Shown in pieces: positions 1 to 20,393 of a stretch of DNA of 42,157 nt. The number at the start of each line of letters is the position of its first letter. Position 1 is the first letter of the stretch. The notes under the pieces were generated by a model. That model ran no database searches, had not been told where the DNA came from, and worked only from the letters and a program-made list of their open reading frames with translations. This DNA comes from Gammaproteobacteria bacterium (lineage in GTDB: Bacteria; Pseudomonadota; Gammaproteobacteria; Pseudomonadales; Halieaceae), in the NCBI GenBank assembly GCA_030426545.1, contig JAUHYL010000033.1:1-42157 (forward strand), in the 5' to 3' direction. A program made the translations under genes and the position numbers.

Positions 1-969
1 GGAGAGAAAGAGGGTGTACCCCAACCAGCGCAGGTTGAACCCATTGGTGAGCGCCTCGCGGGCATAGAAAGCAGCGCGCGCATAGTCTGAGCGATTGACC
101 AGCAATTCGGTCAGGTGTTTCAGTTCGTAGGTCTTGCCCAGGCGACAGCGCTGCAATACCGATGGGTGTTTGCAGTGGCAGATGCCCTTATCGAATACGC
201 GTATCTGGTAGAGCTTCTTGTCCACCGCTGAAGCGGCGGTCGACATATTCAGACGCATGGTGCCGTCTGGAATATTGTGTCGGGACATGACGCGTGTGCT
301 GTACAGAATGACGTCGGCGGCGTCGATCGAGCGCAGAAAAATGTCGCGATCGTTTTCGTAGCGAATGCTTTCGTCCATGCCGCCAATGGCCTGGTAGAAG
401 TCCCGCGAAAAAATGCTGCAATTGAGGTGGGCAAAGCCCTCGCTCAACAACAGAAAATCAGCATCGACGTAGAATGAGTCGTTGATATGCGGCGATCCCG
501 CCTCAACTTCACTGACAAGATCCTCCAGCCAGAGGGGCGCCGCGTGCTCGCTTCCATCGGCGTAAAAAGCGCGCTGGTTGCTGTAGTGGACGTCGATGGT
601 TTGTTGACTGCCGACAATGCAGGCATGGGCCCGTTGCAGGTAGTCGTTGTCCGTCCAGTGGTCGTCGTCATCGAGAAAGCACAGGTAGCGGCCCTCTGAA
701 TGAGCCACGCCATGGTTCATGGTATAGCTCTGGCCGTGTCCGTCGGCGCGGTGCTGAAGCCACAGAAAGCTTACCTGGTCGTAGTCCTGCTCCAACTGTT
801 GGTAGGCCTGGAGGTATTCTTCGTCGCAGCCATCCACGATGGCGAAAATCTCACGATCAGCGAACCCCTGTTGGACCACGGAATCCAGAGCGCGTCGAAA
901 CAGGACCGGGCGATTTCGAGTGGAGATGATAACAGTGAAAAAGGGGCTGGAATCCGCTGCTGGTGCCAC
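1..969 (-). CDS. Family 2 glycosyltransferase, C-terminus cut by the window edge
   Basis: The minus strand is open from a GTG at 969-967 to base 1, giving 323 codons with no stop, so the C-terminus lies outside the window. The start follows an in-frame TAG upstream and has AGAGG about 8 nt before the GTG. The protein begins with the GT-A signature FFTVIISTRNRP, followed by an acidic DDDDHW stretch (the DXD nucleotide-sugar/metal site) and a GGMDE motif near the acceptor side. It should transfer a sugar from a nucleotide donor to a glycan or lipid-linked acceptor at the cytoplasmic membrane face. It is divergent from the ATP-grasp gene. The donor sugar cannot be read from sequence. The GT2 fold call is strong; the role in exopolysaccharide assembly is inferred from context. 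Confidence 0.85.
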   Translation of the reverse strand, partial: MAPAADSSPFFTVIISTRNRPVLFRRALDSVVQQGFADREIFAIVDGCDEEYLQAYQQLEQDYDQVSFLWLQHRADGHGQSYTMNHGVAHSEGRYLCFLDDDDHWTDNDYLQRAHACIVGSQQTIDVHYSNQRAFYADGSEHAAPLWLEDLVSEVEAGSPHINDSFYVDADFLLLSEGFAHLNCSIFSRDFYQAIGGMDESIRYENDRDIFLRSIDAADVILYSTRVMSRHNIPDGTMRLNMSTAASAVDKKLYQIRVFDKGICHCKHPSVLQRCRLGKTYELKHLTELLVNRSDYARAAFYAREALTNGFNLRWLGYTLFLS

Positions 970-1367
970 TAAACCGACCTCTGTCTGTATGCTGACACCT
1001 GTGTGCTCCTACTGCCTGAGCGGAAAACCGCAGCGTGGGGTGGGTTCGCGCCGCGGCTGTTAAAGCCCGATATCCGGACGCCGACTCTTCGTTATCTGGC
1101 TATCATAGAAAGGTGGCTGTATCCCGGTCAACACGGACTGGCGTGAATGTGAACTGCATCCTGCCGTGCGGGCGTCCTCTTGTCCAGTGGCTATGATGCC
1201 GCTCACATTTTTACTGTTCACCGGTGTGAAACAGGTGCATAAGTGTATTCAAAACAATAAGATGGCGACTTAATTGGGCACTGCGTGCCGCGCTCTCTGT
1301 GCGGGAACAGCGCGGCGCACTGTCGCCGAGAGCATTGGGCTGCGTACAACTTGAATATGCACTGGTT
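970..1367. other. Divergent intergenic region between GT2 and ATP-grasp genes
   Basis: About 400 bases without a convincing gene. An upstream GTG at 1299 is in frame with the ATP-grasp gene, but the codons before 1368 show no family sequence. The region must hold the promoters of both divergent genes. I see no strong -35/-10 pair. The only clear structure is an inverted repeat at 1217-1230, listed separately. Confidence 0.5.
1217..1230. promoter_or_regulatory. Inverted repeat, possible operator
   Basis: TTCAC-CGGT-GTGAA is a perfect 5-bp inverted repeat with a 4-nt centre. It extends outwards as CTG...CAG if one extra A is allowed. It lies about 140 bp before the ATP-grasp start in a divergent intergenic region, a usual place for a regulator site. 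No regulator is assigned; this is pattern only. Confidence 0.25.
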
Positions 1368-3113
1368 ATGAAAACTGCATCCGGTATAGAGGTGCTCGTT
1401 CTCGATGCGGATATGGTGCCAGCCCTGACCATCTCAAGGTCTCTGGCGCGTCGCGGCTGCCGTGTCACCGTCGCCAGCCATATCGCCAAGCCTGTCGCCA
1501 GTCGTTCCCGCACCAGCGCTGCCTGTTTCACCTATCCCGACCCTTTGTCCCGCGCTGAAGATTTCATCCGCTGGCTGCAGGAGCACACGCAGACGCACGA
1601 CTATCAACTGGTGATGCCGGTGACGGAGCGCACGCTGGTGCCCTTGTCGCGCAGTCGGGCCTTGTTTGAGCATGTAAACTTGGCCATGCCGGAAGCGCGC
1701 AGCCTGGAACTGGTGCTCGACAAGTCGCAGACACTGGCGATGGCAGAAGAACTGGGGGTGCCCATCCCCAAGGGCATCCATGTGCGCTCCCTGGAGCAGT
1801 TATATGAACTGGGTGAGACGCTGCATTACCCGGTCGTTATCAAACCCAGCCGATCTATCGGCTCTGGAGAGCAGGGCGCCAGTCATTTGCAGGTTAGCTA
1901 TGCCTTCGATGCCGTTGGCCTGGTGTCGGGTTGTCGGCACGCACTGCGCTTTGGCTCGGTTGTGCTGCAGGAGTATTTCAGGGGCGATGGCGTGGGTGTC
2001 GAACTCATCGCACAACACGGAGAAGTTTTTTACGCCTTCCAGCATCGGCGCCTGCACGAAGTGCCGTTGACCGGGGGTGGTAGCAGCCTGCGCAAGAGCG
2101 AGCCGCTGCGACCCGAGCTGCTGGAGGCATCGCGCGCCTTGGTGCGTGCGATGAACTGGCACGGCGTTGCCATGGTGGAGTTCAAACTGGATCGGGCCAC
2201 CGGCGCATTCTGCCTCATGGAAATCAATGGTCGATTCTGGGGGTCCTTGCCCCTGGCTGACGCGGCGGGAGCGGATTTTCCAGGCATGTTGCTACACCTT
2301 GAACTGGAGAACGAACGAAGGCCCGTACCCGACTACCGCGAGAATATGCATTGCAGATTGCTGTCGCGCGATCTGCTCTGGTACGAGTCGGTTCTGCGTG
2401 GTGAGGCGGATGAGCGGATTGTCGAATTGCCCGACAGAAAGGCGATTTTGCGGGAGCTAGGGCTGTTTCTGTCGCCGCGACATCGTTTTGACGTGCAGAA
2501 ACTGTCCGATCCGTGGCCGGGCATTGTTGATATCGGAACCATCATCAACACCTACTGGCAGCGTATATCAACATTGCTGGAGGACAAACGCTTCCTGCGC
2601 CGCCAGCGCAGTGTCTGGCGCTCCGGGCAGGTGGCGAAAGCCATTGGGTCGGCGGAATCCATGCTGTTCATGTGTTACGGCAATATCAATCGCAGCGCAC
2701 TGGCTGATGTCATGGTGCGAGCGTACGCCGAGGATACCGGACTGAGCATACACTCAGCCGGATTTCACCAGGAGAGCGGGCGGCCTGCAGACCCGGTCAT
2801 GGTGGAAATTGCGGCCGATCACGGTGTTGATATGAGCGCCCTGCGCTCAACGGCGGTGACGGAGGAACAACTGCGCAGGAGCGACATTATTTTCGTCATG
2901 GAGAAACGTCATTTCGATCGAATCGTTGAGATGCGCCCTGACGTCGCGAACAAGACCTTTCTTCTCGGCGCCTATCCCGGTGCGGAAGCCGGGCCGGCGG
3001 AGATCGAAGATCCTTACGGCCGTTCGCGAGCAGCCTACCTGCGCTGCTTTGAGCACATCTCCGGGGCGATCGATCACGTCAAATCGCTGCTTGCCGTCAG
3101 AAGTGCTGATTAA
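1368..3113 (+). CDS. ATP-grasp ligase fused to low-molecular-weight protein tyrosine phosphatase
   Basis: The protein has 581 residues from ATG 1368. GTG 1299 is an in-frame alternative; the ATG is chosen because the fold begins at VLVLDADMVPALTISRSL. Residues 1-330 form an ATP-grasp enzyme of the carbamoyl-phosphate-synthase-like type. IKPS near 158 is the ATP-binding lysine strand, and MEINGRFWGSLPLA near 284-297 carries the metal-binding Glu and Asn. Such enzymes make an acyl phosphate and join it to an amine or other nucleophile. Residues about 430-581 are a low-molecular-weight tyrosine phosphatase: the CYGNINR P-loop (Cys436, Arg442) fits CX5R, and the EDPYGRS segment carries the general-acid Asp. 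Both halves look active. Exopolysaccharide loci often carry LMW-PTPs acting on tyrosine kinases, which suggests a cytoplasmic regulatory or biosynthetic role. The ligase substrate is unknown. Confidence 0.88.
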   Translation: MKTASGIEVLVLDADMVPALTISRSLARRGCRVTVASHIAKPVASRSRTSAACFTYPDPLSRAEDFIRWLQEHTQTHDYQLVMPVTERTLVPLSRSRALFEHVNLAMPEARSLELVLDKSQTLAMAEELGVPIPKGIHVRSLEQLYELGETLHYPVVIKPSRSIGSGEQGASHLQVSYAFDAVGLVSGCRHALRFGSVVLQEYFRGDGVGVELIAQHGEVFYAFQHRRLHEVPLTGGGSSLRKSEPLRPELLEASRALVRAMNWHGVAMVEFKLDRATGAFCLMEINGRFWGSLPLADAAGADFPGMLLHLELENERRPVPDYRENMHCRLLSRDLLWYESVLRGEADERIVELPDRKAILRELGLFLSPRHRFDVQKLSDPWPGIVDIGTIINTYWQRISTLLEDKRFLRRQRSVWRSGQVAKAIGSAESMLFMCYGNINRSALADVMVRAYAEDTGLSIHSAGFHQESGRPADPVMVEIAADHGVDMSALRSTAVTEEQLRRSDIIFVMEKRHFDRIVEMRPDVANKTFLLGAYPGAEAGPAEIEDPYGRSRAAYLRCFEHISGAIDHVKSLLAVRSAD

Positions 3114-3215
3114 GCCGGGTATGTTCAGCCGCCTCTGCAGCCCCTGCACCGTTTGCCCGCGAGCAGGTAGTGCTGCTTGTAACAGTGGGTCCCATTTTTC
3201 AGGTGAGGTTTTGCA

Positions 3216-4004
3216 ATGAGCGAACTTCCTCCGGGTAAATTCCTTGTCATCGGGCTGGGTTCGGGTCGCTCAGGTACAGCCTCCCTGACGAGCCTGTTTA
3301 ACCGGCAACAGGGTGGCCTGTGTTTTCACGAGATGAATCCCTCCTGCGCTGTGTTCGAGGGCAACCCGCAATCCCAGCTGAATACCATTGCCGAATTCAG
3401 CGCTATTCTCAGGGGCGGTGACCGCGCACGTCTTTCCATCGATTATTCGCGACAGATGTCAGTGGATAGCTACGCCCAACTGCAACAGATGCAGGCGGTG
3501 AACCTGATCGGGGATATTGCTTTTTACTATTTGAGCTACGTCGAGGAAATTCTCAGGCTTTTCCCGCAGTGCAAATTTGTCTGTATCCAGCGCGACCGCG
3601 AGGAAACCGTTCAGAGTTGGTTGAAAAAGTCTGCAATCCAGCGCTGGCCCAGCCTCTGGCTTGGCGATCGTATACGCGCGCTGCTGACGCGAACGCCGTT
3701 TCACACCTCGCACAATTACTGGCAGGACCACGATGGCAGCGTATGGAAACCCGATCCGGTCTGGGACAGTGCGTTCCCGACGTTCGATGCGCCCTCCAGA
3801 GTGGAGGCGATTCGACAGTACTGGGATTTCTACTATCGCGAGGCAGAGCGGCTGCAGCGCGAGTTCGCAGGCAGTTTCCGTATCTTCGACGTTCAGGCCC
3901 TCAGCAATGCCGACGGGCAGCGCGAGATACTGGGGTTCATCGGTCTGGATGAGCAGAGCATGGTAGTGGGTGAGGCAGCTCATCTACACAAATCCGGCGC
4001 ATAG
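3216..4004 (+). CDS. Sulfotransferase family protein
   Basis: The protein has 262 residues. ATG 3216 is preceded by AGGTGAGG at 3201-3208, a good ribosome site. The N-terminal FLVIGLGSGRSGTASL segment is the P-loop-like 5'-phosphosulfate binding loop of PAPS-dependent sulfotransferases. FVCIQRDREETVQSW in the middle matches the strand and helix that bind the 3'-phosphate. The family moves a sulfuryl group from PAPS to hydroxyl or amino groups of sugars, lipids or proteins. Between an ATP-grasp gene and exosortase-associated hydrolases it probably sulfates an envelope glycan or the product of this module, but the acceptor is not visible in the sequence. It follows the ATP-grasp gene by about 100 nt on the same strand. 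Confidence 0.8.
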   Translation: MSELPPGKFLVIGLGSGRSGTASLTSLFNRQQGGLCFHEMNPSCAVFEGNPQSQLNTIAEFSAILRGGDRARLSIDYSRQMSVDSYAQLQQMQAVNLIGDIAFYYLSYVEEILRLFPQCKFVCIQRDREETVQSWLKKSAIQRWPSLWLGDRIRALLTRTPFHTSHNYWQDHDGSVWKPDPVWDSAFPTFDAPSRVEAIRQYWDFYYREAERLQREFAGSFRIFDVQALSNADGQREILGFIGLDEQSMVVGEAAHLHKSGA

Positions 4005-4119
4005 CCGTTCCTGAGCAGTTGATGCAGAGCGAGATGATCGACAGATTCGAAGCCAGTAGTGGAATGTGCCGCCAGGCCGCCAAGGCAGGGGAAACCACAA
4101 TCCGGGAGTGCAATGGTCA

Positions 4120-5019
4120 ATGAGTAGTCCAGCCAGAGGAAATGCAGGTTTGGAGGTTCCCGTCGTAATGGATTGCCACGGGGATACGCTGGTTGCCATG
4201 GTACACAAGCCGCAGCAAGCGCTTTCGACCGGGATTGTCTGCGTCATCGCCGGTGGTCCGCAGTACCGTGCAGGGGTGGCACGAAATATGGTGTCCATGG
4301 CGCGCACTTTGAGTGCGCAAGGTGTGGCAGTAATACGTTTTGATCACCGTGGCCTGGGGGATAGTTCGGGCAACTTTGCCGGCTTTGAGCACACCCGTGA
4401 GGACATCCAGGTTGCAGTCAACACCTTGCGCGCTGAGGTGCCCGAGGTTACCGACGTGGTGCTCTGGGGCGGTTGCGATGCCGCTTCCGGCTGTATGATC
4501 CACGGCTGCGATATCGACGGGGTATCGAGTATGGTGCTGGGAAACCCGTGGATAACCACCGACGCTACACAGGCCGCTGTACAAAAGAAGCACTATCTCA
4601 AGCGCCTGGGAGAATGGTCGTTCTGGCGCAAATTGCTGCGCTTTGAATACAATCTGCTCGATTACGCCCGTGCGTTACTTGCGCGTATCACCGCGAAGTT
4701 GAGTGCCAAAGTGGGCGACGATGCGGCGATTTCCGCTACAGCGCAGCGGTCAGAACCCGCTGCAGCGGGTAACTGGATCGAACGCATGCTGGATGGGCTG
4801 CGCCGCTTTGATGGCCCTGTCCTGTTTATCATGAGTGGCCAAAGCATGATCAGCCAGGAGTTTGATCAACTGGTGAGAACCGACAAAGCGTGGGCGGCTG
4901 CCTACGACAAGCCAGATCATCAACGCATTGACCTGCCAGAGGCAGACCAGACCTTTTCCAGCGTGGATGCCCGTGAGCGCGTGAATCGCGCCCTGCTGGA
5001 CTGGGTTCGTTCGCGTTGA
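4120..5019 (+). CDS. Exosortase A system-associated hydrolase 1-type protein, paralog A (His changed to Gln)
   Basis: The protein has 299 residues from ATG 4120 (GTG 4108 is an alternative). It is an alpha/beta-hydrolase-fold protein. VCVIAGGPQYRAGVARN and FDHRGLGDSSGNF match paralog B at 7434-8291 and the exosortase A-associated hydrolase 1 family. The nucleophile elbow reads LWGGCDAASG, so Cys occupies the Ser position, as in paralog B. Near the C-terminus, where paralog B has ADHTFSS, this protein has ADQTFSS, so the expected catalytic His is Gln. It may therefore be an inactive or acyl-binding partner, or use another His nearby (KPDHQR). It follows the sulfotransferase by 115 nt and converges with the next gene. 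Family membership is clear; the reaction is unknown. Confidence 0.82.
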   Translation: MSSPARGNAGLEVPVVMDCHGDTLVAMVHKPQQALSTGIVCVIAGGPQYRAGVARNMVSMARTLSAQGVAVIRFDHRGLGDSSGNFAGFEHTREDIQVAVNTLRAEVPEVTDVVLWGGCDAASGCMIHGCDIDGVSSMVLGNPWITTDATQAAVQKKHYLKRLGEWSFWRKLLRFEYNLLDYARALLARITAKLSAKVGDDAAISATAQRSEPAAAGNWIERMLDGLRRFDGPVLFIMSGQSMISQEFDQLVRTDKAWAAAYDKPDHQRIDLPEADQTFSSVDARERVNRALLDWVRSR

Positions 5020-5069
5020 TGGGTCACTGTGGTGGCCTGCCACCCTGTCGGGTCGGTTGAAACAGTCAC

Positions 5070-6140
5070 TCAATCCGCATCGCGCCTGACGGTGCGTTTC
5101 AGCAGATGCCAGCATAACTGCGCCAGCCCGCGCACTGTCCTCGGGTTATAAGCCGCCAGACCGTGACGTTCGCGCCGCTCGGACATCCAGTCTCGCTTGT
5201 AGGCATCGTCACCGGACAGGTAGTCAATGCACGTTACGCCGTCGTTTTCCAGGGCGTGTTGCAGCAGGTGTGCGGTCAGCACCGTGCCAGGGGATAGCTC
5301 GGAATAATCCCCGTCATAGGCGAGCTTGAAAATATACGCTGCGCGGCCGTTAATCAGCCATATCTGCGCGGCGATCGGCTTGCCGTCGTAATGCGCCAGA
5401 CCCAGCCGCAACCAGCCGCGCTCTGCGGCCAACCGAATTAAGGCAGGCGTAAACTCGGTGTAGGGTTCATCGCGCTTCCAGCTGCGGTTGTAGATGGCGG
5501 TATACGCTGAGATGGCCTCTTCCAGCTCCCCACCACCGGTGATGATACTCAAGGCGCCGCGCTCGTCGCGCAACAGCTTGCGGGTCTTCCGGGATAGTGT
5601 GTTGCGCAGCCGCGAGGGGCGGGTGCGCAGGTAGCTGTCCCAGTCGTTGGTGTCGGTATTGTGTATCCAGTTGCCAAAGCAGAAGTAGGGGTGCACGCCG
5701 CGCCATCCCGCCTCGGCGAGTGCCCGCTGCAGTGAATTGAACGTGTCATGCTCCGCGTCCATCGGCGCCAGCGTCAGGCTGTCGCTGCGCAGATCTTTGG
5801 CCAGGTGGCGCAAGGCCGCAGTGTAAAGAGGCAGTGATTCAGCGGCAGTGCAGCCCGGCTGGTAAAAGGACGTGTAAAAATTCCCCAGTGCATGCGCGCT
5901 GCCATTGGCGGACAGCTTTAGCGGCACCACGGCCATGTCTGACCCCGAGCCCCGCGCGACGAGCACGATAGCCCTGTCGCCCACCTCGAGCGCGTGTCGT
6001 GAGAGGTTGAGCAGCCAGTCCAGCCCCAATTGCGGGTGCTGGCCTTCAAGTGTTTTGAATAGCTGCTCTACCGACGAATCGACCGCGTCTTCCAGCAGCT
6101 CAATGCACTCAACGTTGATGTTGCCGGAGGCCGTGTCCAA
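5070..6140 (-). CDS. BioF2/FemAB-like GNAT-fold acyltransferase
   Basis: The protein has 356 residues from a TTG start at 6140; no better in-frame ATG exists nearby and the Shine-Dalgarno is weak. It matches the Acetyltransf_6 (BioF2-like, CelD) group related to FemAB peptidyl/aminoacyl transferases: a split GNAT fold with LRNTLSRKTRKLL in the centre, then YTAIYNRSWKRDEPY, AQIWLINGRAAYIFKLAY and the terminal DYLSGDDAYKRDW. Members of this group in PEP-CTERM/exosortase loci are thought to transfer an acyl or aminoacyl group during envelope glycan or lipid modification; the substrate is not known. It is divergent from the ACP operon and could use acyl-ACP as donor, which is inference. It is the only minus-strand gene between the two hydrolase 1 paralogs. 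Confidence 0.75.
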   Translation of the reverse strand: MDTASGNINVECIELLEDAVDSSVEQLFKTLEGQHPQLGLDWLLNLSRHALEVGDRAIVLVARGSGSDMAVVPLKLSANGSAHALGNFYTSFYQPGCTAAESLPLYTAALRHLAKDLRSDSLTLAPMDAEHDTFNSLQRALAEAGWRGVHPYFCFGNWIHNTDTNDWDSYLRTRPSRLRNTLSRKTRKLLRDERGALSIITGGGELEEAISAYTAIYNRSWKRDEPYTEFTPALIRLAAERGWLRLGLAHYDGKPIAAQIWLINGRAAYIFKLAYDGDYSELSPGTVLTAHLLQHALENDGVTCIDYLSGDDAYKRDWMSERRERHGLAAYNPRTVRGLAQLCWHLLKRTVRRDAD

Positions 6141-6236
6141 GGTTTATTCGTCTCATTGCGGGCAGACTGCACTATCGAGCAAATGCAGGTGGCTGGCAAT
6201 ACCCCTCAAACTGTCGCGATCATCACAAAATCGACC

Positions 6237-6265
6237 TTGAGTCGTCTTTGACGGGGGGGTAGCAT
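6237..6265 (+). promoter_or_regulatory. Possible sigma70 promoter for the ACP operon
   Basis: TTGAGT at 6237-6242 and TAGCAT at 6260-6265 are separated by exactly 17 nt, about 75 bp before the chosen ACP start and in the divergent gap. The -10 matches four of six consensus positions. This is a pattern call only. Confidence 0.3.
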
Positions 6266-6338
6266 TGGCGCAATTACAGGGGCTTGGCAGGCTGTTGGGC
6301 ACTTATTCACCTTGCACTCCATTCGGGGCGACATCGCG

Positions 6339-6593
6339 TTGAACACGGATATTCAGTCGGAAGTGGTTTCCATACTGCAGTCCACGCTCGGCCTGCCCGA
6401 CGGCAGCATTTCAGCCGATCCATCGACGCGCATACTCGGTGCGATCCCCGAGATGGATTCCATGTCGGTAGTCGGCGTCCTTACTTCAATGGAAGAGCGC
6501 TACGGCATCATGATCGATGACGACGAGGTGGACGCCGATGTATTCGCTACGGTGGGTAGCCTCAGCGAGTTCCTTGCGTCCAAGCTGGTCTGA
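6339..6593 (+). CDS. Acyl carrier protein, exosortase-cluster type
   Basis: The protein has 84 residues from TTG 6339, preceded by GGGG about 9 nt upstream. TTG 6312 is in frame and would add nine residues; 6339 is preferred because family members start just before the first helix. PEMDSMSVVG holds the serine that takes 4'-phosphopantetheine in acyl carrier proteins, followed by the acidic helix EERYGIMIDDDEVDAD. It should carry an acyl or aminoacyl thioester in the cytoplasm. No ketosynthase, AMP-forming ligase or phosphopantetheinyl transferase is in the window, so loading is done by genes elsewhere or by the nearby ATP-grasp enzyme (inference). Its TGA overlaps the next ATG by one base, so the two are translationally coupled. 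Confidence 0.85.
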   Translation: MNTDIQSEVVSILQSTLGLPDGSISADPSTRILGAIPEMDSMSVVGVLTSMEERYGIMIDDDEVDADVFATVGSLSEFLASKLV

Positions 6594-7423
6594 TGGCGAG
6601 TCAAAACCATTCGGTCTCGATCGACTTCCTCGAACATCCCGATCGTCAGCTATTCCGTGTGCTGTACGGCCCTGAGAGTACCGATTCCTCTGTCAGTGCC
6701 CAGGGTTCGGTGCTTTTTTTACACGCGTTTGCCGAAGAAATGCACAAGGCCCGCCGCAACGTTGCCGCGCAGGCGCGCCGATTGGCGGCCAGCGGCTACT
6801 ACGTCATGCTGCTCGATCTTTCCGGCTGTGGTGATGGCGATGGCGATTTTGTTGAGGCCGACTGGGAACGCTGGAAGGAAGATGCTGCATTTGCGCTGCA
6901 AACCCTGCAGGCGCTGGACTCAGGCCCCATAACGCTTTGGGGATTGCGTCTGGGGGCGCTGCTGGCCTGCGAGCTCGCCCAGGGCCGGGACGACGTTGCC
7001 CAGCTACTGCTCTGGCAGCCCGTGCTCAACGGCGAGCAGCAGATTGATCAGTTTCTGCGCTTGCGCACTGCCGCGACGGCGATGACTAGCGGCGTGGCTT
7101 TCGATCGCAAGAGCCTTTGGGGCGAGTTGCGCGAGGGTCGCACACTGGAGATAGCAGGGTACGAATTGTCATCACAAATGGCACTGCAGATCGCGCGTGC
7201 GCGACTGCTGGATATGAGTCCTCCCTGTCCGGTGGGCTGGATTGAGGTCGGCGGCGGCGTGGAGGCAAGGCTCGCACTGCCCAGTCAGAACGTTATCGCG
7301 CACTGGCAGGATCACGGGGTGCAGGTTGATTCCCGCTGTATTGCCGGCGAGCCCTTCTGGCGCAATCACGATGCGACTGTGAACACCGATTTGCAGCGCG
7401 CCACGATGGAAGTACTGCTGTGA
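6593..7423 (+). CDS. Exosortase A system-associated hydrolase 2-type protein
   Basis: The protein has 276 residues. ATG 6593 overlaps the ACP stop. It is an alpha/beta-hydrolase fold: FLHAFAEEMHKARRNVAAQA is the oxyanion-side signature of the exosortase A-associated hydrolase 2 family, and LDLSGCGDGDGDF follows. The nucleophile elbow is TLWGLRLGALLA, i.e. GLRLG, with Arg where hydrolases have Ser. A standard Ser-hydrolase reaction is therefore unlikely, and a role as a carrier-protein partner, acyl-binding scaffold or altered-chemistry enzyme is possible. The tight coupling with the ACP upstream and hydrolase 1 paralog B ten bases downstream argues that the three act on one thioester intermediate; this is inference. 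Family call is good, function unknown. Confidence 0.85.
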   Translation: MASQNHSVSIDFLEHPDRQLFRVLYGPESTDSSVSAQGSVLFLHAFAEEMHKARRNVAAQARRLAASGYYVMLLDLSGCGDGDGDFVEADWERWKEDAAFALQTLQALDSGPITLWGLRLGALLACELAQGRDDVAQLLLWQPVLNGEQQIDQFLRLRTAATAMTSGVAFDRKSLWGELREGRTLEIAGYELSSQMALQIARARLLDMSPPCPVGWIEVGGGVEARLALPSQNVIAHWQDHGVQVDSRCIAGEPFWRNHDATVNTDLQRATMEVLL

Positions 7424-7433
7424 AAGGTCTGTC

Positions 7434-8291
7434 GTGAAAGGCGCGGGCTGGCGGGAGCAGGGTGCTGTATTTCAGTGCGGCGACAATCGCCTCACGGGAA
7501 TTCTTGCGCTGCCGGACGAGTCGGCAGCCGTTGGCGTTGTATTACTGGTAGGTGGGCCGCAATACCGGGTAGGAAGCCATCGGCAGTTCACCCTGCTGTG
7601 CCGTGATCTCGCCGCGGCGAATATTCCCTCCCTGCGCTTCGATTACTCGGGCATGGGTGATAGCGAGGGGGATCACCGTGAGTTTTATGATGTTGAGGAA
7701 GATCTCGCAGCGGCTATCGATGCCCTGAAACTCGCCAGTGGCGTTACCCGGGTCGTGTTATGGGGCCTTTGTGATGCGGCGTCCACCGCGATGCTCTATG
7801 CGCATCAGCATGCGGACGTCAGCGGGCTCGTACTGCTAAACCCCTGGGTGCATGGGGATGAATACTCGGCGAAAGTAAAGTTTTCCCATTACTATCGCCC
7901 ACTGTTGAAGGGTCGGGAAAACTGGAGCCGGCTAATCTCGGGCGAGGTTGATCTGTTTCCGGCGATGAAAGAGTTCCTCGGCAGTTCGGCGCGTACCGTG
8001 GCAGGGCTGATCGGTATTACTTCTGCCGCCGCATCCCGACATTCTTTCGTTCAGCAAATGCTCAAGGGCTTCGGGCAGTTCGATAACGACAGCCTGATTA
8101 TACTCAGCGAAGATGATCTGACCGCGCGCGAATTTTCCTCGCTGGTAGAGGGTGATAAAGCCTGGCAGGGACTAGTAGGCCGTGACGGTGTGCAAACAGT
8201 GACTATAGCGGGCGCGGATCATACGTTTTCATCCGGGACCTGGATGCGTGAAGTTTCAAACTTGACCATTGAATGGATAAAACAGCGTTAA
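7434..8291 (+). CDS. Exosortase A system-associated hydrolase 1-type protein, paralog B
   Basis: The protein has 285 residues from GTG 7434 with AAAGG about 6 nt upstream, ten bases after hydrolase 2. It has the typical family features: VVLLVGGPQYRVGSHRQF, FDYSGMGDSEGDHREF, the elbow VVLWGLCDAAST with Cys as presumed nucleophile, an LLNPWVHGDEYSAK segment, and a C-terminal ADHTFSS with the catalytic His. Unlike paralog A, the Cys-His pair is complete, so this copy is the likely active thioesterase or acyltransferase of the pair. It converges with the asparagine-synthetase-like gene with seven bases between stops. The substrate is unknown; the adjacent ACP suggests an acyl-ACP thioester. Confidence 0.86.
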   Translation: MKGAGWREQGAVFQCGDNRLTGILALPDESAAVGVVLLVGGPQYRVGSHRQFTLLCRDLAAANIPSLRFDYSGMGDSEGDHREFYDVEEDLAAAIDALKLASGVTRVVLWGLCDAASTAMLYAHQHADVSGLVLLNPWVHGDEYSAKVKFSHYYRPLLKGRENWSRLISGEVDLFPAMKEFLGSSARTVAGLIGITSAAASRHSFVQQMLKGFGQFDNDSLIILSEDDLTAREFSSLVEGDKAWQGLVGRDGVQTVTIAGADHTFSSGTWMREVSNLTIEWIKQR

Positions 8292-8298
8292 CAGATTG

Positions 8299-10143
8299 CT
8301 ACGCGGACGTTACATCCAGCTCACTTTCTGATTTTGCCTCTAGCCAAAGCTCAAACACTGTCAGTATCCACACCAGTTCGCCGTAGTAGGCGGCGTGTTC
8401 GCTCTGGTGCATCTCTATAGCGCGGTCAATAAACTCTGGGCGTATGAAATCCCGCTGCTTCAGTTTGAGCATGTGGTCGTAGGCCATCTCTCTGAGAGGA
8501 GCGTAACTTCGCATCCATACGCCAAAGGGCAGGCCAAAGCCCTGTTTGGTTTTGTTGATGGTCTCCTGCGGTAACCAGTTGTCCAGGGCTCGCTTGTAGA
8601 AATGTCTGAGGTCCTGCCCCCGGATTTTCCAATCGCCTGGCACGTTACAGGATAACGCCAGTAAATCGTCGTCCAGCATGGGGTAGGTGACGTCCACGCC
8701 TGCCAGGGCGCACATGTGTGATACCTTGCGCAGGTCGTTGTCGGCCAGTGTGATCTGCCAGTCCAGATAGAGCATGCGGTTCAAGTCGCTGGCGGTTTCA
8801 GGCCCGTGGTAGACAGCGCGTTGAATTTCCAGCGGTTCTTCCGTATCGACACTGGCCAGAAAATCCGTGGAAAAAATTTCCTCTGCGGCGTGGCGATTTA
8901 GAAAGTTATAACTCTGTAGTCGGTCCGGGAGAGGCGTATTTCCCTGCTGGATGTAACTGCGCGCTTTCGATACCAGCGGCAATGTTGCCGGCAGCAGCCT
9001 GGCCACTGGCTCTATCAGGCCCTTGCGGAATACGCCCGGTATGCGGGCATAGTGGTCAAACACACGCTGGCGCAGGTACCGTTCGTTCCCGGCAAACAGC
9101 TCATCGCCACCATCGCCTGCCAACAACGTTTGTACACCGTTGTCGGCCGCCATGCGCGCGCAAAAATAGGCTGGCAGGGCGGAGGAATTGCCAAACGGTT
9201 CATCGTAACTGGTCGCGACTACCGGCAGCGCATCAACCACATCTTCCGGCGTCACATAGTATTCGTTGAGTTGCACGCCGAAGTGTTTCGCCGTGATGCG
9301 GGCAAAAGCCATCTCGTCGTAGCCCTCAGCGGCAAAGCCAATGGAGTAAGCCTCGGCGGAACTGTCACATACCTCAGCCATAAACCCGGTGACCGTGGAG
9401 CTGTCCAGCCCGCCACTGAGAAACGCGCCTGTTTTACCCTCATCTGGCACGCTGTTGCGAACCGCCTCGCGCAAGGTGCTCTTGAGTTCCTCACCCATGG
9501 CCTCGAAGCGCTTGCCTTGCGCGTCCTCTGAGAACTGCGGTTGCCAGTACTTGCGCTGTTTCAGTCCGCTGTAATCAAACTCTATGAAATGTGCGGCGGA
9601 CAGCTTTTTTACGCCCGGGTAGACGCTGCCCGGGCTGGGCACCATGTGAAAATAGACGTAGTTGTAGATGCCCTGCTCGGCGAGCCTGGTGTCTCGTACG
9701 TCTGCCGGGAGCGCGCCGCGTGCTTCACTGCTGATGAGCAACCGGTCGCTGTCCTGGTGGTAATACAGGGCGTACTGCCCAAGCCGGTCAATGCCGGCAA
9801 GCAACTTGCCCGCCGTGTTGTCGATCACGCAGATCGCGAAGGCGCCGAAGACGTGGTTGAACAGCCCGCTGCCGTGCTGCAGGTACGCTTTTGCCACCGC
9901 CGCTGCGGCGCCCTCGGCTTGTGCAGTCGCTGCCAGGCTCGAATCGCGAAACCTCGGGCGACCCGCAATCGATACAGCGCCGCCATCGGGCAGGGGGCTG
10001 GAACCGGTTGTGCAGGCCATCTGGAAATTCTCGGCGCCGGCTGTGAAAACCGGGAGGGCGGTTTGCAGTTCCGGTGCCGTTGGCGTGGATCTGACGGCAT
10101 TTTTGTCCGCCTGAAACCAGCCCAGCAAGCCGTGGCGTCGCAT
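8299..10143 (-). CDS. Asparagine-synthetase-like protein lacking the glutaminase cysteine
   Basis: About 614 residues from ATG 10143; ATG 10182 (after AAGGGAAG) would add 13. The C-terminal half is an ATP-pyrophosphatase synthetase: the PP-loop SGGLDSS is near 243-249, SYDEPFGNSSALPAY near 312, and AGDGGDELFAGNERY near 342. It would adenylate a carboxylate and form an amide. The N-terminal half has the shape of a class II glutamine amidotransferase (AGIDRLGQYALYY, then YFHMVPSPGSVYPGVKKL), but it begins MRRHGLLGWF where active enzymes have MCGI-G-F. The Cys nucleophile is missing and no RGPDD-like motif is visible. It probably uses ammonia or another amine, as beta-lactam synthetase does after losing the same Cys. 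Exosortase A loci often carry such proteins. Substrate unknown. Confidence 0.82.
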   Translation of the reverse strand: MRRHGLLGWFQADKNAVRSTPTAPELQTALPVFTAGAENFQMACTTGSSPLPDGGAVSIAGRPRFRDSSLAATAQAEGAAAAVAKAYLQHGSGLFNHVFGAFAICVIDNTAGKLLAGIDRLGQYALYYHQDSDRLLISSEARGALPADVRDTRLAEQGIYNYVYFHMVPSPGSVYPGVKKLSAAHFIEFDYSGLKQRKYWQPQFSEDAQGKRFEAMGEELKSTLREAVRNSVPDEGKTGAFLSGGLDSSTVTGFMAEVCDSSAEAYSIGFAAEGYDEMAFARITAKHFGVQLNEYYVTPEDVVDALPVVATSYDEPFGNSSALPAYFCARMAADNGVQTLLAGDGGDELFAGNERYLRQRVFDHYARIPGVFRKGLIEPVARLLPATLPLVSKARSYIQQGNTPLPDRLQSYNFLNRHAAEEIFSTDFLASVDTEEPLEIQRAVYHGPETASDLNRMLYLDWQITLADNDLRKVSHMCALAGVDVTYPMLDDDLLALSCNVPGDWKIRGQDLRHFYKRALDNWLPQETINKTKQGFGLPFGVWMRSYAPLREMAYDHMLKLKQRDFIRPEFIDRAIEMHQSEHAAYYGELVWILTVFELWLEAKSESELDVTSA

Positions 10144-10385
10144 CGTTGTTGTAGCCTTGTCGTGGTGATTTTCGCCCTGCATTGTGCGCGAACTTCCCTT
10201 GCGTTCTGGACTCCAAATGCTAACACCCCAGGCTGGCGCAGAGTAGGCTGGGCGCTTTAAGCTGCTGCGATCAACGGCACTTCTGCGACCTGGTTCTACA
10301 AATAGCGGGCACTTGTTATGCTGTTGCGTAGGCAAAACGGTAAACCCACCTGCTTCAAGTACATACAAAGGCTACTGGTTTCGAA

Positions 10386-11771
10386 ATGAGTGATAGAGGC
10401 GCAACAGATCTACTCCGTGTAGCGATACTTGCCATCGCAACCGTGACGCTGCTTGCGCAGGCTGAATCGTCGCAGGCCAGGGACAAGCGCTTTCAGGGCA
10501 AAGCCAGCGCTGCTCCTGTCAGTGCGCCCAGGCAGCCCACGGAGACGGGCGGCAACTGGGCCTATTACCTGGGCGCGCTGGATATCGACAGCAAGCCGTT
10601 CTACGGTAACTACGGCAGAGATTTCAAGTGGGCGTATTCCCATCGTGTACCCCTGCCGGCTGATCCTCGCGTGGTGGTAAGCATGCACGGCTCTGGCGCA
10701 GGCGAAGGAGCCATGCGTGTCTTCGGCCCCAGTGCCCTGGGCGACATTGAAGTACGTAACCAGGATGCCGAAGCCTACAGTACCGACTGGCGTGAGTGGT
10801 GGACTTTCGGGCCCGGTGGCGTGCCTGCTCCCGGACGGCGCATCGCGGCAACGCTGGAGTTTCTACTCAAGCGCTACTCGTTCGACCCCGATGGGCGCGG
10901 CCTGGTGCTGGAAGGGCCATCCATGGGCGGAGCCGGCGCTGTCATGCAAACCATGCTCCTGCCCGATCCCTGGCGACAGCGCATCGCATACTCGTCAGCA
11001 CGCGTGGGTGTAATCATGCCGCGTCGCATCTACATCAGTAATCCCGGCCAGTACCGTACCTTCCCGCCTGATGCCGGCGCGGCTCGCTGGCTGTGGGACA
11101 AGATCGATTTTTCCATTCAGGCGGCCAGTGATCCCGTCGTGCGTGGCATACACTATCGCCATGCTTTCGGCAGTAATGATCAGTTCAGCGCAGGCCCCGC
11201 TGGCAATACCCAGCTGGAGTTCGTAAACCTGATCGAACAGCACAAAATCGGCGGTGCATTCAGTTGGGTGCGCGGGGGGCACAGTTCTGCTGAAGCGGGC
11301 GTGAACATTCCCCAGCTCAATCGATTCGAAGTGGCCGAACAGGACGTGACGCTGGACAGGGTGCACCCGGCCATCACCAATTCGACGGGTAATTTTCCGC
11401 TGACCGCCAAGCAGCGCGTCGATGAGGCGAAGTACCCGCGTGGACACTACAACCTCGGCATCAGGTGGCATCACGGCAAGATTGTCGATACCCCGGATAA
11501 GATCGTACTCCCTCTGCGCTACAAGCAGCACACAGGCCTGGGAAAAGGCGTGCCCGATCAACCTGCTGCCATCACGGTGAGCGTGACGCCAAGAAGAGCG
11601 CGAAATTTCGAGCTGCGCGACGGGGAGACGCTGCACTGGAACTGGGCCAGGGGGCAACTCGAAGGGACGGCCACGGTGCAGGGAGATACGCTGACCATCG
11701 ACGGCATTCCACTCGTTTCAGGCGAACCCTACAAAATGCTGAAAATCTACCGGCCTCCCGGTCGGGGCTAG
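10386..11771 (+). CDS. Secreted alpha/beta-hydrolase-like (esterase/depolymerase-like) protein
   Basis: The protein has 461 residues. The N-terminus has a charged start, a hydrophobic stretch (VAILAIATVTLLAQA) and an AQA or SQA cleavage site, so it is probably exported. PRVVVSMHGSGAGEG looks like the oxyanion-hole strand and LVLEGPSMGGAGA like a nucleophile elbow (G-x-S-x-G, Ser). GSNDQFS and WVRGGHSSAE are plausible Asp and His positions. The C-terminal 100 residues (ITVSVTPRRARNFEL onward) look like a small beta domain. It resembles secreted esterases and polymer depolymerases and could trim or deacylate the exported glycan, which is inference. It is divergent from the asparagine-synthetase-like gene and followed after 173 nt by the MBOAT gene. 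No exact family was recognised. Confidence 0.6.
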   Translation: MSDRGATDLLRVAILAIATVTLLAQAESSQARDKRFQGKASAAPVSAPRQPTETGGNWAYYLGALDIDSKPFYGNYGRDFKWAYSHRVPLPADPRVVVSMHGSGAGEGAMRVFGPSALGDIEVRNQDAEAYSTDWREWWTFGPGGVPAPGRRIAATLEFLLKRYSFDPDGRGLVLEGPSMGGAGAVMQTMLLPDPWRQRIAYSSARVGVIMPRRIYISNPGQYRTFPPDAGAARWLWDKIDFSIQAASDPVVRGIHYRHAFGSNDQFSAGPAGNTQLEFVNLIEQHKIGGAFSWVRGGHSSAEAGVNIPQLNRFEVAEQDVTLDRVHPAITNSTGNFPLTAKQRVDEAKYPRGHYNLGIRWHHGKIVDTPDKIVLPLRYKQHTGLGKGVPDQPAAITVSVTPRRARNFELRDGETLHWNWARGQLEGTATVQGDTLTIDGIPLVSGEPYKMLKIYRPPGRG

Positions 11772-11854
11772 TCTGCCAGCTTGCAAAGGCCTGTCCTAAA
11801 GGGTTAGTAGGCTGCGGCCGGGGGCCTCAGGCCGAGACCCGCCCAAGGTGTGAC

Positions 11855-11885
11855 GTGGTTAATAATAACCACCCTTTGCGGTGGT
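11855..11885 (+). promoter_or_regulatory. Two mutually exclusive hairpins before the MBOAT gene
   Basis: GTGGTTA (11855-11861) pairs perfectly with TAACCAC (11866-11872) across a 4-nt loop. ACCACC (11868-11873) can instead pair with GGTGGT (11880-11885) across CTTTGC. The two structures share the middle arm, so they compete, as in leader attenuators. They lie 60-90 nt before the start codon in a 173-nt gap. No U-tract follows, so any effect would be on RNA stability or translation. Low confidence. Confidence 0.3.
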
Positions 11886-11944
11886 CTCCATCGGTTGAAT
11901 TTGAGACAGTGGGCGTATAAGAAAGCGTCGTTCGGGGCCTCGCC

Positions 11945-13507
11945 TTGCTGTTCAACTCCTACGAATTTATCTTCGTGTTTATGCCGATCTGTGTGTTCGG
12001 CTATTACATTTGCACCCGCTTTCTGACGCTCGAGTTCGCCCTCGGATTTCTGGTGTTGTGTTCGCTGTGCTTCTACGCCTACTGGAAGCCGGAATACATT
12101 CTGCTCATTCTGTTCTCCATTGCGTTCAACTTTGCAGTGGGAAGACTGCTGGAGGAGGGCAACCGCTGGCGCCAGCGCAGCGTGTTGGTGTTTGGCGTCA
12201 CGGTAAACCTTGGCTTGTTGGCTTATTTCAAGTACGCCAACTTCTTTATCGATAACGTTAACGCGACCATTGGCACTCAATGGGATATCGGCCAGATCTT
12301 TCTTCCGCTGGCGATCTCGTTCTTCACCTTCCAGCAAATTTCCTACCTGGTGGACAACTATCGCGGGCTGACCAGTGAGCACAACTTCCTGCACTACGCC
12401 CTGTTTGTGTGCTTCTTTCCGCAACTGATCGCCGGCCCGATCGTGCATCACAAAGAGATTCTGCCGCAGTTTGTAGACCGCGCTACCATGCGCCTGCGTT
12501 CGTCCAATGTTGCCGTCGGACTTTCGATTTTTGCGATCGGGCTGTTCAAAAAAACTGTACTCGCGGACAGCCTGTCAGCCTATGTCGGCCCGGTGTTTGA
12601 TTCACCGGAAGCCAGCGCGAATGTGGATTTCTTTCGCGCCTGGGGCAGCACGCTGGCTTACACGTTTCAGTTGTACTTTGATTTCTCCGGCTACTCGGAC
12701 ATGGCGATAGGTGCAGCGCGTATTTTCGGCGTGCGCCTGCCCATCAATTTTTTCTCGCCCCTTAAGTCGACCAGCATTGTCGAGTTCTGGCGTCGCTGGC
12801 ACATCACTTTGTCCCGTTTTCTGCGGGAGTACCTGTACTTTGCCCTTGGGGGGAACCGCGTCGGCTCCTTCCGTCGTTACATGAACCTGTTCCTTACCAT
12901 GTTGTTGGGCGGACTCTGGCATGGAGCAGGATGGCCCTTTGTCATCTGGGGAGCGCTGCATGGCTCCTACCTGATTATCAATCATGGCTGGCGCAACCTG
13001 TTGCAGCGGATTGGCTGGCAACTGTCGGGAAATCCTGTCTACAAAGTGGTCTGCTGGGGTCTGACTTTCGCTGCCTGGGTATTTTCAATGGTGTTTTTCC
13101 GTGCGCCCAGTCTCGAACAGGGCATGGATATAACGCGAGCAATGTTCGGGCTTTCCGGCTTCCAGCTTCCCGCCGGAATCATGGTACGTCTTGGTGGCCT
13201 GGGCGACTGGTTGAGGACGGGGCTGGGTATCGAAGCCGCCCACGGCGGTGGGTTGGTTCTGGTTACCAATTATCTATGGGTGATTGGCTGCCTGTTGATT
13301 GCAGTCGCACTGCCCAATGTGGCGCAGATTTTTCACCGCGAGGAGCCGGTGTTGTATGAGGATGAGCGTGTGTTTGCCGGGCAGAGACAGTCCGCAATAC
13401 TGGTGTGGCGTGCGGGCCTTGCCTGGGCGCTGGTGATTGCTGTAGCTGCTGTGGCGGGCATTATGACGCTGCAGCAGGTATCCGAATTTCTCTACTTCCA
13501 ATTCTGA
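11945..13507 (+). CDS. MBOAT family O-acyltransferase (AlgI-like)
   Basis: The protein has 520 residues from TTG 11945, chosen because the family N-terminus is LLFNSYEFIFVFMP. It is a polytopic inner-membrane protein with about ten hydrophobic segments. The MBOAT core is visible: FFTFQQISYLVDNYRG near 126-141, the FWRRWHITLSRFLREY motif with His286, and GGLWHGAGW with the invariant catalytic His326. AlgI/PatA-type MBOATs move acetyl or acyl groups across the membrane for O-acylation of exported polysaccharide, and usually work with a periplasmic SGNH/AlgJ-like partner, here the next gene. The stop (TGA 13505-13507) overlaps the ATG of that partner by one base, so the two are coupled. It probably acylates the glycan made by the surrounding genes. 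Confidence 0.92.
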   Translation: MLFNSYEFIFVFMPICVFGYYICTRFLTLEFALGFLVLCSLCFYAYWKPEYILLILFSIAFNFAVGRLLEEGNRWRQRSVLVFGVTVNLGLLAYFKYANFFIDNVNATIGTQWDIGQIFLPLAISFFTFQQISYLVDNYRGLTSEHNFLHYALFVCFFPQLIAGPIVHHKEILPQFVDRATMRLRSSNVAVGLSIFAIGLFKKTVLADSLSAYVGPVFDSPEASANVDFFRAWGSTLAYTFQLYFDFSGYSDMAIGAARIFGVRLPINFFSPLKSTSIVEFWRRWHITLSRFLREYLYFALGGNRVGSFRRYMNLFLTMLLGGLWHGAGWPFVIWGALHGSYLIINHGWRNLLQRIGWQLSGNPVYKVVCWGLTFAAWVFSMVFFRAPSLEQGMDITRAMFGLSGFQLPAGIMVRLGGLGDWLRTGLGIEAAHGGGLVLVTNYLWVIGCLLIAVALPNVAQIFHREEPVLYEDERVFAGQRQSAILVWRAGLAWALVIAVAAVAGIMTLQQVSEFLYFQF

Positions 13508-14637
13508 TGAAAGCGAACCGATACCTTTTTCAACTGCTTGTCTGCCTTCTGCTGGTATCGGCACTGGCGGCGGGTATCAATTTTTTTGTGGATCCCTACG
13601 GCGTCAACAATGCACGTCGCATCGATGGCTTCAATGCGTTCAAGGTTGATATCAACGCACATGCGCGCCTGTTGAAGAAGTATCAGCCGGCATTCAATGA
13701 ATACAACGCGCTGATCCTGGGCAATTCCCGGGTAGAAATGGGGCTTGATCCGGCGCATCAGTGTTTTACCCGGGCTGGCATGCAGGTCTACAACCTGGGG
13801 GTGCCGGGCGCGGGCCTGGCGCGGCAGCTTGCCTACGCCATGAACGTGATCCATGAGCAACCTGTTGAGCATGTCCTGCTCAGCGTGGACTTCATTGACT
13901 ATCTTTCCACCAGTCAGTCCCGTGTTACAGAACGGCCGATCTACATGCGGGACGGAGAAGGCAGTCTGAAATACTTCCCCAGTGGCGAAGTGAACGAGGC
14001 CTTTGCGTCGGTGAAGTTGAAAGACTATTTTCGCGCGCTGTTTTCGCTGGATGCACTGATCAGCTCCGTCAAAACGGTTGCGCTGCAGGGCAGGGCGGCG
14101 ACCGATCGCGATGAGCGTGGATTTAACCCGGGCCTCGATTTTGCCTCGATGGTGAAAGTGGAGGGCGCGCACGCGCTGTTCGATCAGAAGCTGGGAGATT
14201 TGAGAGGCAAGTACGGCAGGCCACGGTATTTTCGCGATGCCCACGGGCAAACGTCTAATGTGATGCGGGATCTGGAGGCTTTCCTGGACTTTGCCACCGC
14301 CCGTGGCATGGCGGTTACGGTATTCGTTAATCCGCTGCATCAGGCGTTTTGGCAGCTAATGGAAAGCAACGGCCATATGCCGCTATACGAGGATTGGCTG
14401 CAGGAGACCAGGAAACTGCTGGAAAAGTATGCTGATAGTGGCGTGGCTTTCTGGGATTTCTCGCAGCCGTCAGCCTATAACAGCGAACCGGTTCCTACCG
14501 CGGGAGGTGAAGCTGGCGCCCTGCAATGGTTCTGGGAGCCCTCCCACTATCGCCGCGAGCTGGGCGACCTGATGATAGAAGCCATGTTGGCCGATCGCTG
14601 TGCAACACAGGCGGTGTTCGGGGAGCGTTTACAGTAG
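13507..14637 (+). CDS. AlgJ/SGNH-like periplasmic partner of the MBOAT acyltransferase
   Basis: The protein has 376 residues from ATG 13507. An N-terminal membrane anchor (YLFQLLVCLLLVSALAAGINFFV) and a DPYGVNN segment follow the start. NALILGNSRVEMGLDP is the SGNH-like block I with the GNSR serine, seen in MBOAT partner proteins. LSVDFIDYLS and a C-terminal WEPSHYRRELGDLM, with the His of the expected catalytic pair, complete the picture. It should sit in the inner membrane facing the periplasm and complete transfer of the acyl group to polysaccharide. The one-base overlap with the MBOAT gene supports a single functional unit. It converges with the glrR-like gene, with seven bases between stops. 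No exact family name was recognised. Confidence 0.75.
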   Translation: MKANRYLFQLLVCLLLVSALAAGINFFVDPYGVNNARRIDGFNAFKVDINAHARLLKKYQPAFNEYNALILGNSRVEMGLDPAHQCFTRAGMQVYNLGVPGAGLARQLAYAMNVIHEQPVEHVLLSVDFIDYLSTSQSRVTERPIYMRDGEGSLKYFPSGEVNEAFASVKLKDYFRALFSLDALISSVKTVALQGRAATDRDERGFNPGLDFASMVKVEGAHALFDQKLGDLRGKYGRPRYFRDAHGQTSNVMRDLEAFLDFATARGMAVTVFVNPLHQAFWQLMESNGHMPLYEDWLQETRKLLEKYADSGVAFWDFSQPSAYNSEPVPTAGGEAGALQWFWEPSHYRRELGDLMIEAMLADRCATQAVFGERLQ

Positions 14638-20334: not shown

Positions 20335-20393
20335 GAAAATACGGTCCTTGGCGGGCCTATGTACTTTATCTGCCGTGCATTGCCCTTTAGTAT

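Follow-up and report, generated by a model that had tools for sequence, protein, structure and literature searches.

The DNA analysed here, called the window, is one entire contig of 42,157 nucleotides (C16; JAUHYL010000033.1) in the 4.35-Mb, 141-contig genome of a gammaproteobacterium of the Halieaceae (GCA_030426545.1), and its first 14.6 kb hold a compact block in which a free-standing acyl carrier protein (ACP) is followed by two proteins of the alpha/beta-hydrolase fold, named here hydrolase 2 and hydrolase 1. The block exists and is conserved, and its gene order is more than a chance arrangement. We give an even chance to the reading that it forms the transfer half of an aminoacyl-carrier pathway, which would use chemistry of the type known from VinN, VinO and BtrK and in which the hydrolase pair would act as the output. 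An earlier note on this DNA had proposed that an activated acyl or aminoacyl group is built on the ACP, used to form an amide and transferred to an exported glycan or a PEP-CTERM protein; that idea holds in its main lines, the aminoacyl branch being the favoured one, while two of its components, the MBOAT/AlgJ pair and a secreted esterase, are demoted. All the genes it named are found in the window at or near the positions given for them, and the block reads as follows:

1..969, minus strand: family 2 glycosyltransferase, 3′ end cut (Pfam PF00535, 5.5e-14); syntenic in L075, L077, L078 and L080
1299..3113, plus strand: fusion of an ATP-grasp domain and a low-molecular-weight phosphotyrosine phosphatase (PF15632, 2.3e-12; PF01451, 1.2e-25)
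3216..4004, plus strand: sulfotransferase with a GLGSGRSGT loop (PF17784, 4.7e-7)
4066..5019, plus strand: hydrolase 1 copy A (TIGR03100, 251 bits, cut-off 168.45)
5070..6140, minus strand: BioF2-like GNAT acyltransferase (PF13480, 1.3e-29)
~6312..6593, plus strand: ACP with the motif EMDSMS, start codon uncertain (PF00550, 2.3e-6)
6593..7423, plus strand: hydrolase 2 (TIGR03101, 234 bits, cut-off 202.75), with Arg119 at the nucleophile site
7434..8291, plus strand: hydrolase 1 copy B (TIGR03100, 292 bits, cut-off 168.45), with Cys113-Asp228-His263
8299..~10143, minus strand: AsnB-like protein (PF00733, 9.6e-77) beginning MRRHGLLGWF at the inferred start, with no glutaminase Cys2 and with the PP-loop SGGLDS
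10386..11771, plus strand: secreted esterase-like protein with GPSMG, no Pfam or NCBIfam match
11945..13507, plus strand: MBOAT O-acyltransferase with GLWHG (PF03062, 7.5e-34)
13507..14637, plus strand: partner of the MBOAT protein, earlier named AlgJ-like, no NCBIfam or Pfam match

Conservation of the block was followed in two sets of loci, namely 80 named loci chosen by hydrolase 1 (the best 80 of at least 560 confirmed) and 27 class loci taken from genomes of the class and chosen by hydrolase 2. Two contigs occur in both sets (L146 = L049 and L133 = L054), so that combined counts hold small duplicates, and the neighbour labels are best blast matches to reference proteins rather than curated families. 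For the triad of ACP, hydrolase 2 and hydrolase 1, whose neighbourhood the earlier note had proposed to check, the three genes stand in this order in 73 of the 80 named loci and in 24 of the 27 class loci, two of the three misses in the latter being cut by a contig end, and the step from hydrolase 2 to hydrolase 1 is kept in 77/80 named loci. The eight nearest loci (L075-L082), six of which are named Halioglobus, Haliea or Halieaceae and two Gammaproteobacteria only, keep the order of the window block over the length that their contigs cover, apart from minor gains and losses. Specifically, they run from the ATP-grasp fusion through the sulfotransferase, a further hydrolase 2 (hydrolase 2′), hydrolase 1 copy A, the BioF2-like transferase, the ACP, hydrolase 2 and hydrolase 1 copy B to the AsnB-like protein; L076 and L079 have an additional ACP in the first half, and L076 also has a ligase and a decarboxylase there. 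We interpret the block of the Halieaceae group as two triads in tandem; in the genome of the window the first of them is broken up, with hydrolase 1 copy A on C16 but the ACP, the ligase and hydrolase 2 on contig C29.

The left end of the window overlaps the end of C29 (L015, 6130 bases) by 136 bases (window 1-136; L015 5995-6130), of which 135 are identical. With only this single mismatch between the two contig ends, C29 is very probably the immediate left neighbour of the window. The overlap falls inside the family 2 glycosyltransferase gene, whose 3′ end is on C29. This contig encodes a cut protein of tetratricopeptide repeat (TPR) type (a reading taken from its relative in L075), a KamA-family radical S-adenosylmethionine (SAM) protein, an ACP, a second TIGR03098 ligase (733 bits) and a second TIGR03101 hydrolase 2 (228 bits), together with a weak sulfotransferase match under the Pfam cut-off. 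The block extends left onto C29, and therefore the activating enzyme that the earlier scheme needs, and that is absent from the window, is close by. The C29 neighbours partly recur in the loci of relatives (labels L15y, L15x, GT2 and ATP-grasp). Proteins labelled L15y, for instance L075 218-985 on the minus strand, are secreted TPR proteins, with relatives in 24 of the 56 long named loci, that is, those of 20 kb or more. The KamA-family protein (L015 402-1862, minus strand) carries CHSYCTFC and lies near the ACP and the VinN-type ligase. It could supply a beta-amino acid; by blast-based labels, no relative of it occurs among the 80 named or the 27 class loci.

In a whole-protein search the ligase family TIGR03098 finds linear gramicidin synthetase first, with a score summed over several stretches. 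When the substrate-binding half is taken by itself, the nearest structures are 3wv4 and 3wvn at 101 bits, the next scoring 71. Their database name is non-ribosomal peptide synthetase (NRPS), and we take them to be VinN, an identity borne out by residue spacing: with an offset of 16 residues, read by eye on the alignment, VinN Asp230, Ser299 and Arg331 coincide with an Asp, a Ser and an Arg in the 3wv4/3wvn chain. These are the residues by which VinN binds its amino acid (extracts of PMC7756342), and they correspond to Asp219, Ser/Thr287 and Arg319 of TIGR03098. After 3 of 55 matches had been dropped as partial, 52 ligases remained, of which 51 carry the pocket Asp, 48 a Ser or Thr and 49 the Arg (alignment A3 comprises 21 of 48 ligases). 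The three without the pocket Arg are relatives at 25-27% identity, among them an NRPS-like protein of genome G197. The window genome has two TIGR03098 ligases, and both carry VinN-type pockets (D, S, R on C29; D, T, R on contig C58), while all three residues are absent from six other AMP-forming ligases encoded there. Judged from these conserved residues, the TIGR03098 ligase is predicted to load an acidic amino acid on the ACP through its side chain. Specifically, it would adenylate the side-chain carboxylate of Asp, Glu or a relative as the first step of the pathway.

NCBIfam, which labels TIGR03098 an acyl-CoA ligase, would suggest a more ordinary fatty-acyl pathway, in which a fatty acid would go from the ligase to the ACP and then, by way of the hydrolases or the BioF2-like protein, to an amine, giving a lipid or an N-acyl amino acid; N-acyl amino acid synthases are linked to PEP-CTERM genomes, and there are papers in which both terms occur. 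We consider this improbable, as the binding half of the ligase is nearest to an amino-acid enzyme and its pocket residues are shared by none of the six other AMP ligases, and as a fatty-acyl product leaves unexplained the BtrK-like decarboxylase that, as described below, accompanies hydrolase 2 in 23/23 genomes. Fatty-acyl loading was set aside on the pocket residues.

The decarboxylase in question, TIGR03099, stands on C58 together with a TIGR03098 ligase. Its nearest solved structure is BtrK (7ru7, 2j66) with 290 bits; diaminopimelate decarboxylases follow far behind, at 160 bits or less. A profile of 21 sequences (alignment A4, 21 of 50 decarboxylases) gives 368 bits for BtrK and 236 for diaminopimelate decarboxylase, and the family has a BtrK-like GPLCTPxD stretch. 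BtrK converts glutamyl-BtrI, on its carrier, to the gamma-aminobutyryl (GABA) form by decarboxylation (extracts of PMC7857480), and in vicenistatin biosynthesis VinN puts methylaspartate on the carrier VinL, whereupon VinO decarboxylates it there (extracts of PMC11284099). By analogy with its closest solved relative, TIGR03099 is predicted to decarboxylate the aminoacyl-ACP. In this second step of the aminoacyl pathway the alpha-carboxylate would be stripped on the carrier, and what remains would be a group of beta-alanyl or GABA type whose amine is free.

Co-occurrence was examined in 360 genomes of the class, 23 of which have hydrolase 2 over its cut-off. TIGR03099 was counted at E < 1e-90 and TIGR03098 over its cut-off, levels reached in 0/14 control genomes; with loose thresholds the two families match 13/14 and 12/14 of the controls. 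At these levels TIGR03099 occurs in 23/23 genomes with hydrolase 2 and in 18/337 others (p 2e-25; 41/360 in all), 22 of the 23 being over the family cut-off and the copy of G094 being partial, while TIGR03098 is over cut-off in the same 23/23 and in 44 or 45 of 360 in all. The earlier proposal of an activated aminoacyl group on the ACP gains from this, both families being nearest to VinN and BtrK and both accompanying hydrolase 2 throughout. An exosortase over cut-off is present in 22/23 genomes with hydrolase 2 and in 86/337 others (p 1e-11). Among the 49 genomes examined from the 80 named ones, the exosortase is over cut-off in 45 (the completeness of the other four is not known) and the decarboxylase is present in 47. 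In other words, the hydrolases follow decarboxylase and ligase more closely than they follow the exosortase.

These figures also bear on the possibility that no joint pathway exists and that each gene is a separate accessory of a polysaccharide locus. Some parts of the block do look like lineage-specific additions: the sulfotransferase has relatives in 7/80 named loci, all in the nearest group (4 of the 56 long ones), the ATP-grasp/phosphatase fusion, whose phosphatase P-loop reads CYGNINRS, has relatives in L075-L078, L080 and L082 at 57-61% identity, and the esterase-like protein has a relative in L081 only, out of 80 named loci, which removes the secreted esterase from the core. A triad kept in order in 73/80 loci and a ligase and decarboxylase present in 23/23 genomes with hydrolase 2 over cut-off are hardly what unconnected accessories would give, and this explanation seems very improbable to us.

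Before the residues of the two hydrolases were counted, one of 117 hydrolase 1 matches and two of 115 hydrolase 2 matches were dropped as partial, and the copy A of L079 is unaligned at the three sites. Hydrolase 1 has Cys at the nucleophile elbow in 115/115 aligned proteins and Asp plus His in 107/115. The eight exceptions are the window copy A and seven copies A from the nearest loci, all with Cys-Ser-Gln. Copy B of the window carries the usual Cys, Asp and His, while copy A has Ser and Gln instead of Asp and His, and because the same loss of Asp and His recurs in eight genomes with the Cys kept, the pattern speaks for a changed role of copy A rather than for decay. In hydrolase 2 the nucleophile site is occupied by Arg in 113/113 proteins, and the alignment shows no His among the invariant or nearly invariant columns. 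The altered hydrolases of the earlier note are consequently real, with the qualification that its three proteins differ, copy B being Cys-Asp-His, copy A Cys-Ser-Gln and hydrolase 2 lacking the nucleophile. Structure models give good alpha/beta hydrolases for hydrolase 1 copy B (pLDDT 86.5) and for hydrolase 2 (pLDDT 91.2). In searches of the PDB, DcsB appears lower in the lists of both proteins and GrgF lower in that of hydrolase 2, GrgF being matched also when hydrolase 1 was used in a profile search. The substrates of these two enzymes are carrier-bound. PhaC, considered as a fold relative of hydrolase 1, is not among the 50 PDB matches listed. As the third step of the aminoacyl pathway, hydrolase 1, with its Cys-His-Asp triad, would take the group on its cysteine and pass it to an acceptor, and the nucleophile-less hydrolase 2 may dock or shape the substrate as its partner.

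Several observations weigh against this scheme. Esterases and lipases rank best among the PDB matches of both hydrolases, and since this holds for hydrolase 1 plain thioester hydrolysis by it, rather than transfer, is possible. The position of VinN Lys330 is Phe in 49/52 TIGR03098 ligases, which sets the family apart from VinN, so that the substrate may not be Asp. Within the same 20 kb as the triad, ligase and decarboxylase are each found in only 28 of the 56 long named loci and both in 26 (AsnB-like 22, BioF2-like 13, MBOAT 7), and the one TIGR03099 over cut-off in the window genome is on another contig, C58. Hydrolase 2 over cut-off is missing from 86 of 108 exosortase genomes, an exosortase over cut-off is missing from 11 of 41 decarboxylase genomes, and ligase and decarboxylase also occur without the hydrolases or the exosortase, so that loading and decarboxylation need not end in the proposed hydrolase step.

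The link with the exosortase is strong, not strict. The window genome belongs to the organisms with a PEP-CTERM/exosortase A system, XrtA being present outside the window on contig C112 (TIGR03109, 337 bits) with FemAB, a deacetylase and a true TIGR03108 amidotransferase (1061 bits). The earlier description of exosortase-type glycan genes adjoining the block holds for the glycosyltransferases TIGR03087 and TIGR04063 and for the GDP-heptose genes, which are in the window, but not for the exosortase itself. Among the 28 genomes with hydrolase 2 matches (23 over and five under cut-off) an exosortase is present in 26, and none was found in G197 (99% complete) and G104 (85%). In G197, which has the triad, the gene directly before hydrolases 2 and 1 (L048 10545-13256, minus strand) encodes the NRPS-like protein, with a partial condensation domain, an adenylation domain and a carrier. 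The earlier note had counted genomes with these genes and neither an exosortase nor a polysaccharide locus as a case against its association with exosortase loci. G197 is such a genome as to the exosortase, a polysaccharide locus there not having been searched for; the association itself stands in 22/23 genomes and fails in this one.

A carrier link, which favours the aminoacyl-carrier reading, is seen outside exosortase genomes too. Apart from the carrier-bearing NRPS-like protein of G197, four of eight stretches that represent 8 of the 11 exosortase-free decarboxylase genomes have a related ACP near the decarboxylase, at distances of 0.1, 0.5, 5 and 6 kb. Neither hydrolase 1 nor hydrolase 2 was found around the decarboxylase in these eight stretches, five of which reach a contig end. 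In the stretch of G185, an exosortase-free genome, an exosortase-type FemAB protein lies beside the decarboxylase.

A different fate of the aminoacyl group would suit these genomes: it might end in a secreted small molecule or lipid, the link with the exosortase reflecting shared regulation or habitat. The triad with an NRPS-like protein in G197, the 11 decarboxylase genomes without an exosortase and the service of VinN, VinO and BtrK in antibiotic synthesis all lend it weight. Yet the exosortase accompanies hydrolase 2 in 22/23 genomes, and the block runs into the heptose and XrtA-type glycosyltransferase genes, which have the same order in L075, L077, L078 and L080, and in L081 as far as the contig goes. 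We regard this alternative as unlikely, though it is the most probable of the rivals.

For the aminoacyl pathway with the hydrolase pair as output, the fourth and weakest step concerns further amides, which the BioF2-like transferase and the Cys-less AsnB-like protein may make, with an amino sugar or a uronic acid in an XrtA-linked surface polysaccharide as the probable final acceptor. The glycan as acceptor is suggested by the position of the block and by the exosortase association. In several further loci (e.g., L062, L071, L073, L104 and L152) the BioF2-like transferase sits next to hydrolase 1 or the ACP. With 7 of 46 proteins dropped as partial and those closer to TIGR03108 left out, the AsnB-like proteins of more than 500 residues, that of the window included, have no Met-Cys-Gly near the start in 39/39 cases and keep SGGxDS in all. 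The Cys-less character claimed earlier is thereby confirmed, and a normal glutamine-dependent (class II) amidotransferase was rejected for want of Met-Cys-Gly. Amide formation, also part of the earlier scheme, would fit if it proceeds without glutamine hydrolysis. The XrtA amidotransferase TIGR03108 is of the same AsnB family and occurs in similar loci, but the window protein scores 266 bits against its cut-off of 816.9 and has no Cys2.

The MBOAT protein and its partner recall the Dlt system, which consists of an AMP-forming ligase, a carrier, an MBOAT protein and a partner. A Dlt-like export, in which the pair moves the ACP-bound aminoacyl group to a periplasmic glycan, would find some ground in the Halieaceae group, where ACP, MBOAT and partner occur together (the partner directly after MBOAT in L075, L077, L078, L080 and L081), and in the match of the MBOAT protein to the DltB model. 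That match reaches 164 bits with a cut-off of 375, outside the family, and no MBOAT was found in 49 of the 56 long named loci, four of the seven that have one belonging to the nearest group. On these two counts, the missed cut-off and the rarity with the triad, Dlt-like export was rejected as scarcely probable, and the MBOAT/AlgJ pair loses the place among the core parts that the earlier note had given it. More likely, the MBOAT protein would O-acetylate the same glycan.

Among known systems, VinN-VinL-VinO of vicenistatin and BolO-BolC-BolN of bolagladin have in common with the present proteins an adenylating enzyme with Asp-Ser/Thr-Arg, a free-standing ACP and a pyridoxal phosphate-dependent decarboxylase acting after loading; the output differs, for a polyketide or peptide synthase follows there and a pair of altered hydrolases, encoded in exosortase-type loci, here. 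The butirosin system (BtrI-BtrK) provides the nearest solved decarboxylase and a carrier-bound substrate, and its pathway ends on an amino sugar, whereas its glutamate is loaded by an ATP-grasp enzyme instead of an AMP-forming ligase and its transferase is of another family. The block proteins are by score members of the NCBIfam exosortase A system-associated families TIGR03098, TIGR03099, TIGR03100 and TIGR03101, which are named by association only; the chemistry is proposed here, and hydrolase 1 copy A and the tandem triad represent a variant of the Halieaceae group. No paper proposing an aminoacyl pathway for exosortase loci was found in the open-licence part of PubMed Central (PMC), judged by titles and abstract openings, which is weak evidence of absence. 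The main text of the 2006 PEP-CTERM paper (PMC1569441) does not contain hydrolase, decarboxylase, ligase, acyl carrier, amidotransferase or asparagine synth; a search by family name led to PMC8205485 alone, whose main text never mentions an exosortase and whose references contain "hydrolase" once, in an unrelated sense; extracts of PMC2907700 and PMC9850573 hold nothing on these enzymes. No thioesterase literature on GrgF or DcsB was found in open-licence PMC.

An aminoacyl-carrier reading gives ligase, decarboxylase and hydrolases each a testable reaction, predicts that Nitrosospira, Massilia, Halioglobus and other such genera carry a chemical mark, an amine of beta-alanyl or GABA type, and points to hydrolase 1 and hydrolase 2 as an unusual catalytic pair. 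It builds on the observed gene order, residues, family nearness and co-occurrence, from which substrate, product, transfer and acceptor are inferred. Tentatively, and with more doubt than confidence, it may be extended to a dedicated exosortase A system in which an exported glycan receives an omega-amino acyl group made from an acidic amino acid by carrier-bound decarboxylation, through a heterodimer of the Cys-His-Asp hydrolase and its Arg-bearing partner without a nucleophile, which would be a new kind of acyltransferase; the Halieaceae group would run two such systems, the first with Cys only.

The remainder of the window holds the following features:

14645-18003, minus strand: response regulator nearest GlrR, small lipoprotein-like gene and histidine kinase, looking like an ordinary GlrK/GlrR-type set
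18391..19050, plus strand: secreted protein with the PEP-CTERM-like tail VPGTPLLLGLALLGLARMGSRQLRR, judged by eye, with no sorting-signal family match
19102..24592: GDP-heptose enzymes (HddC/GmhB-like, HddA, GmhA) and the glycosyltransferases TIGR03087 and TIGR04063, by family matches
28478-29785, plus strand: FG-GAP repeat protein near a tRNA-Leu gene
40671-42089, minus strand: IS1182-family transposase at the right contig end

The kinase and regulator were also considered as a PEP-CTERM pair, which was rejected: the regulator scores 616 bits with the GlrR model and 362 with the PEP-CTERM model, both below the cut-offs.

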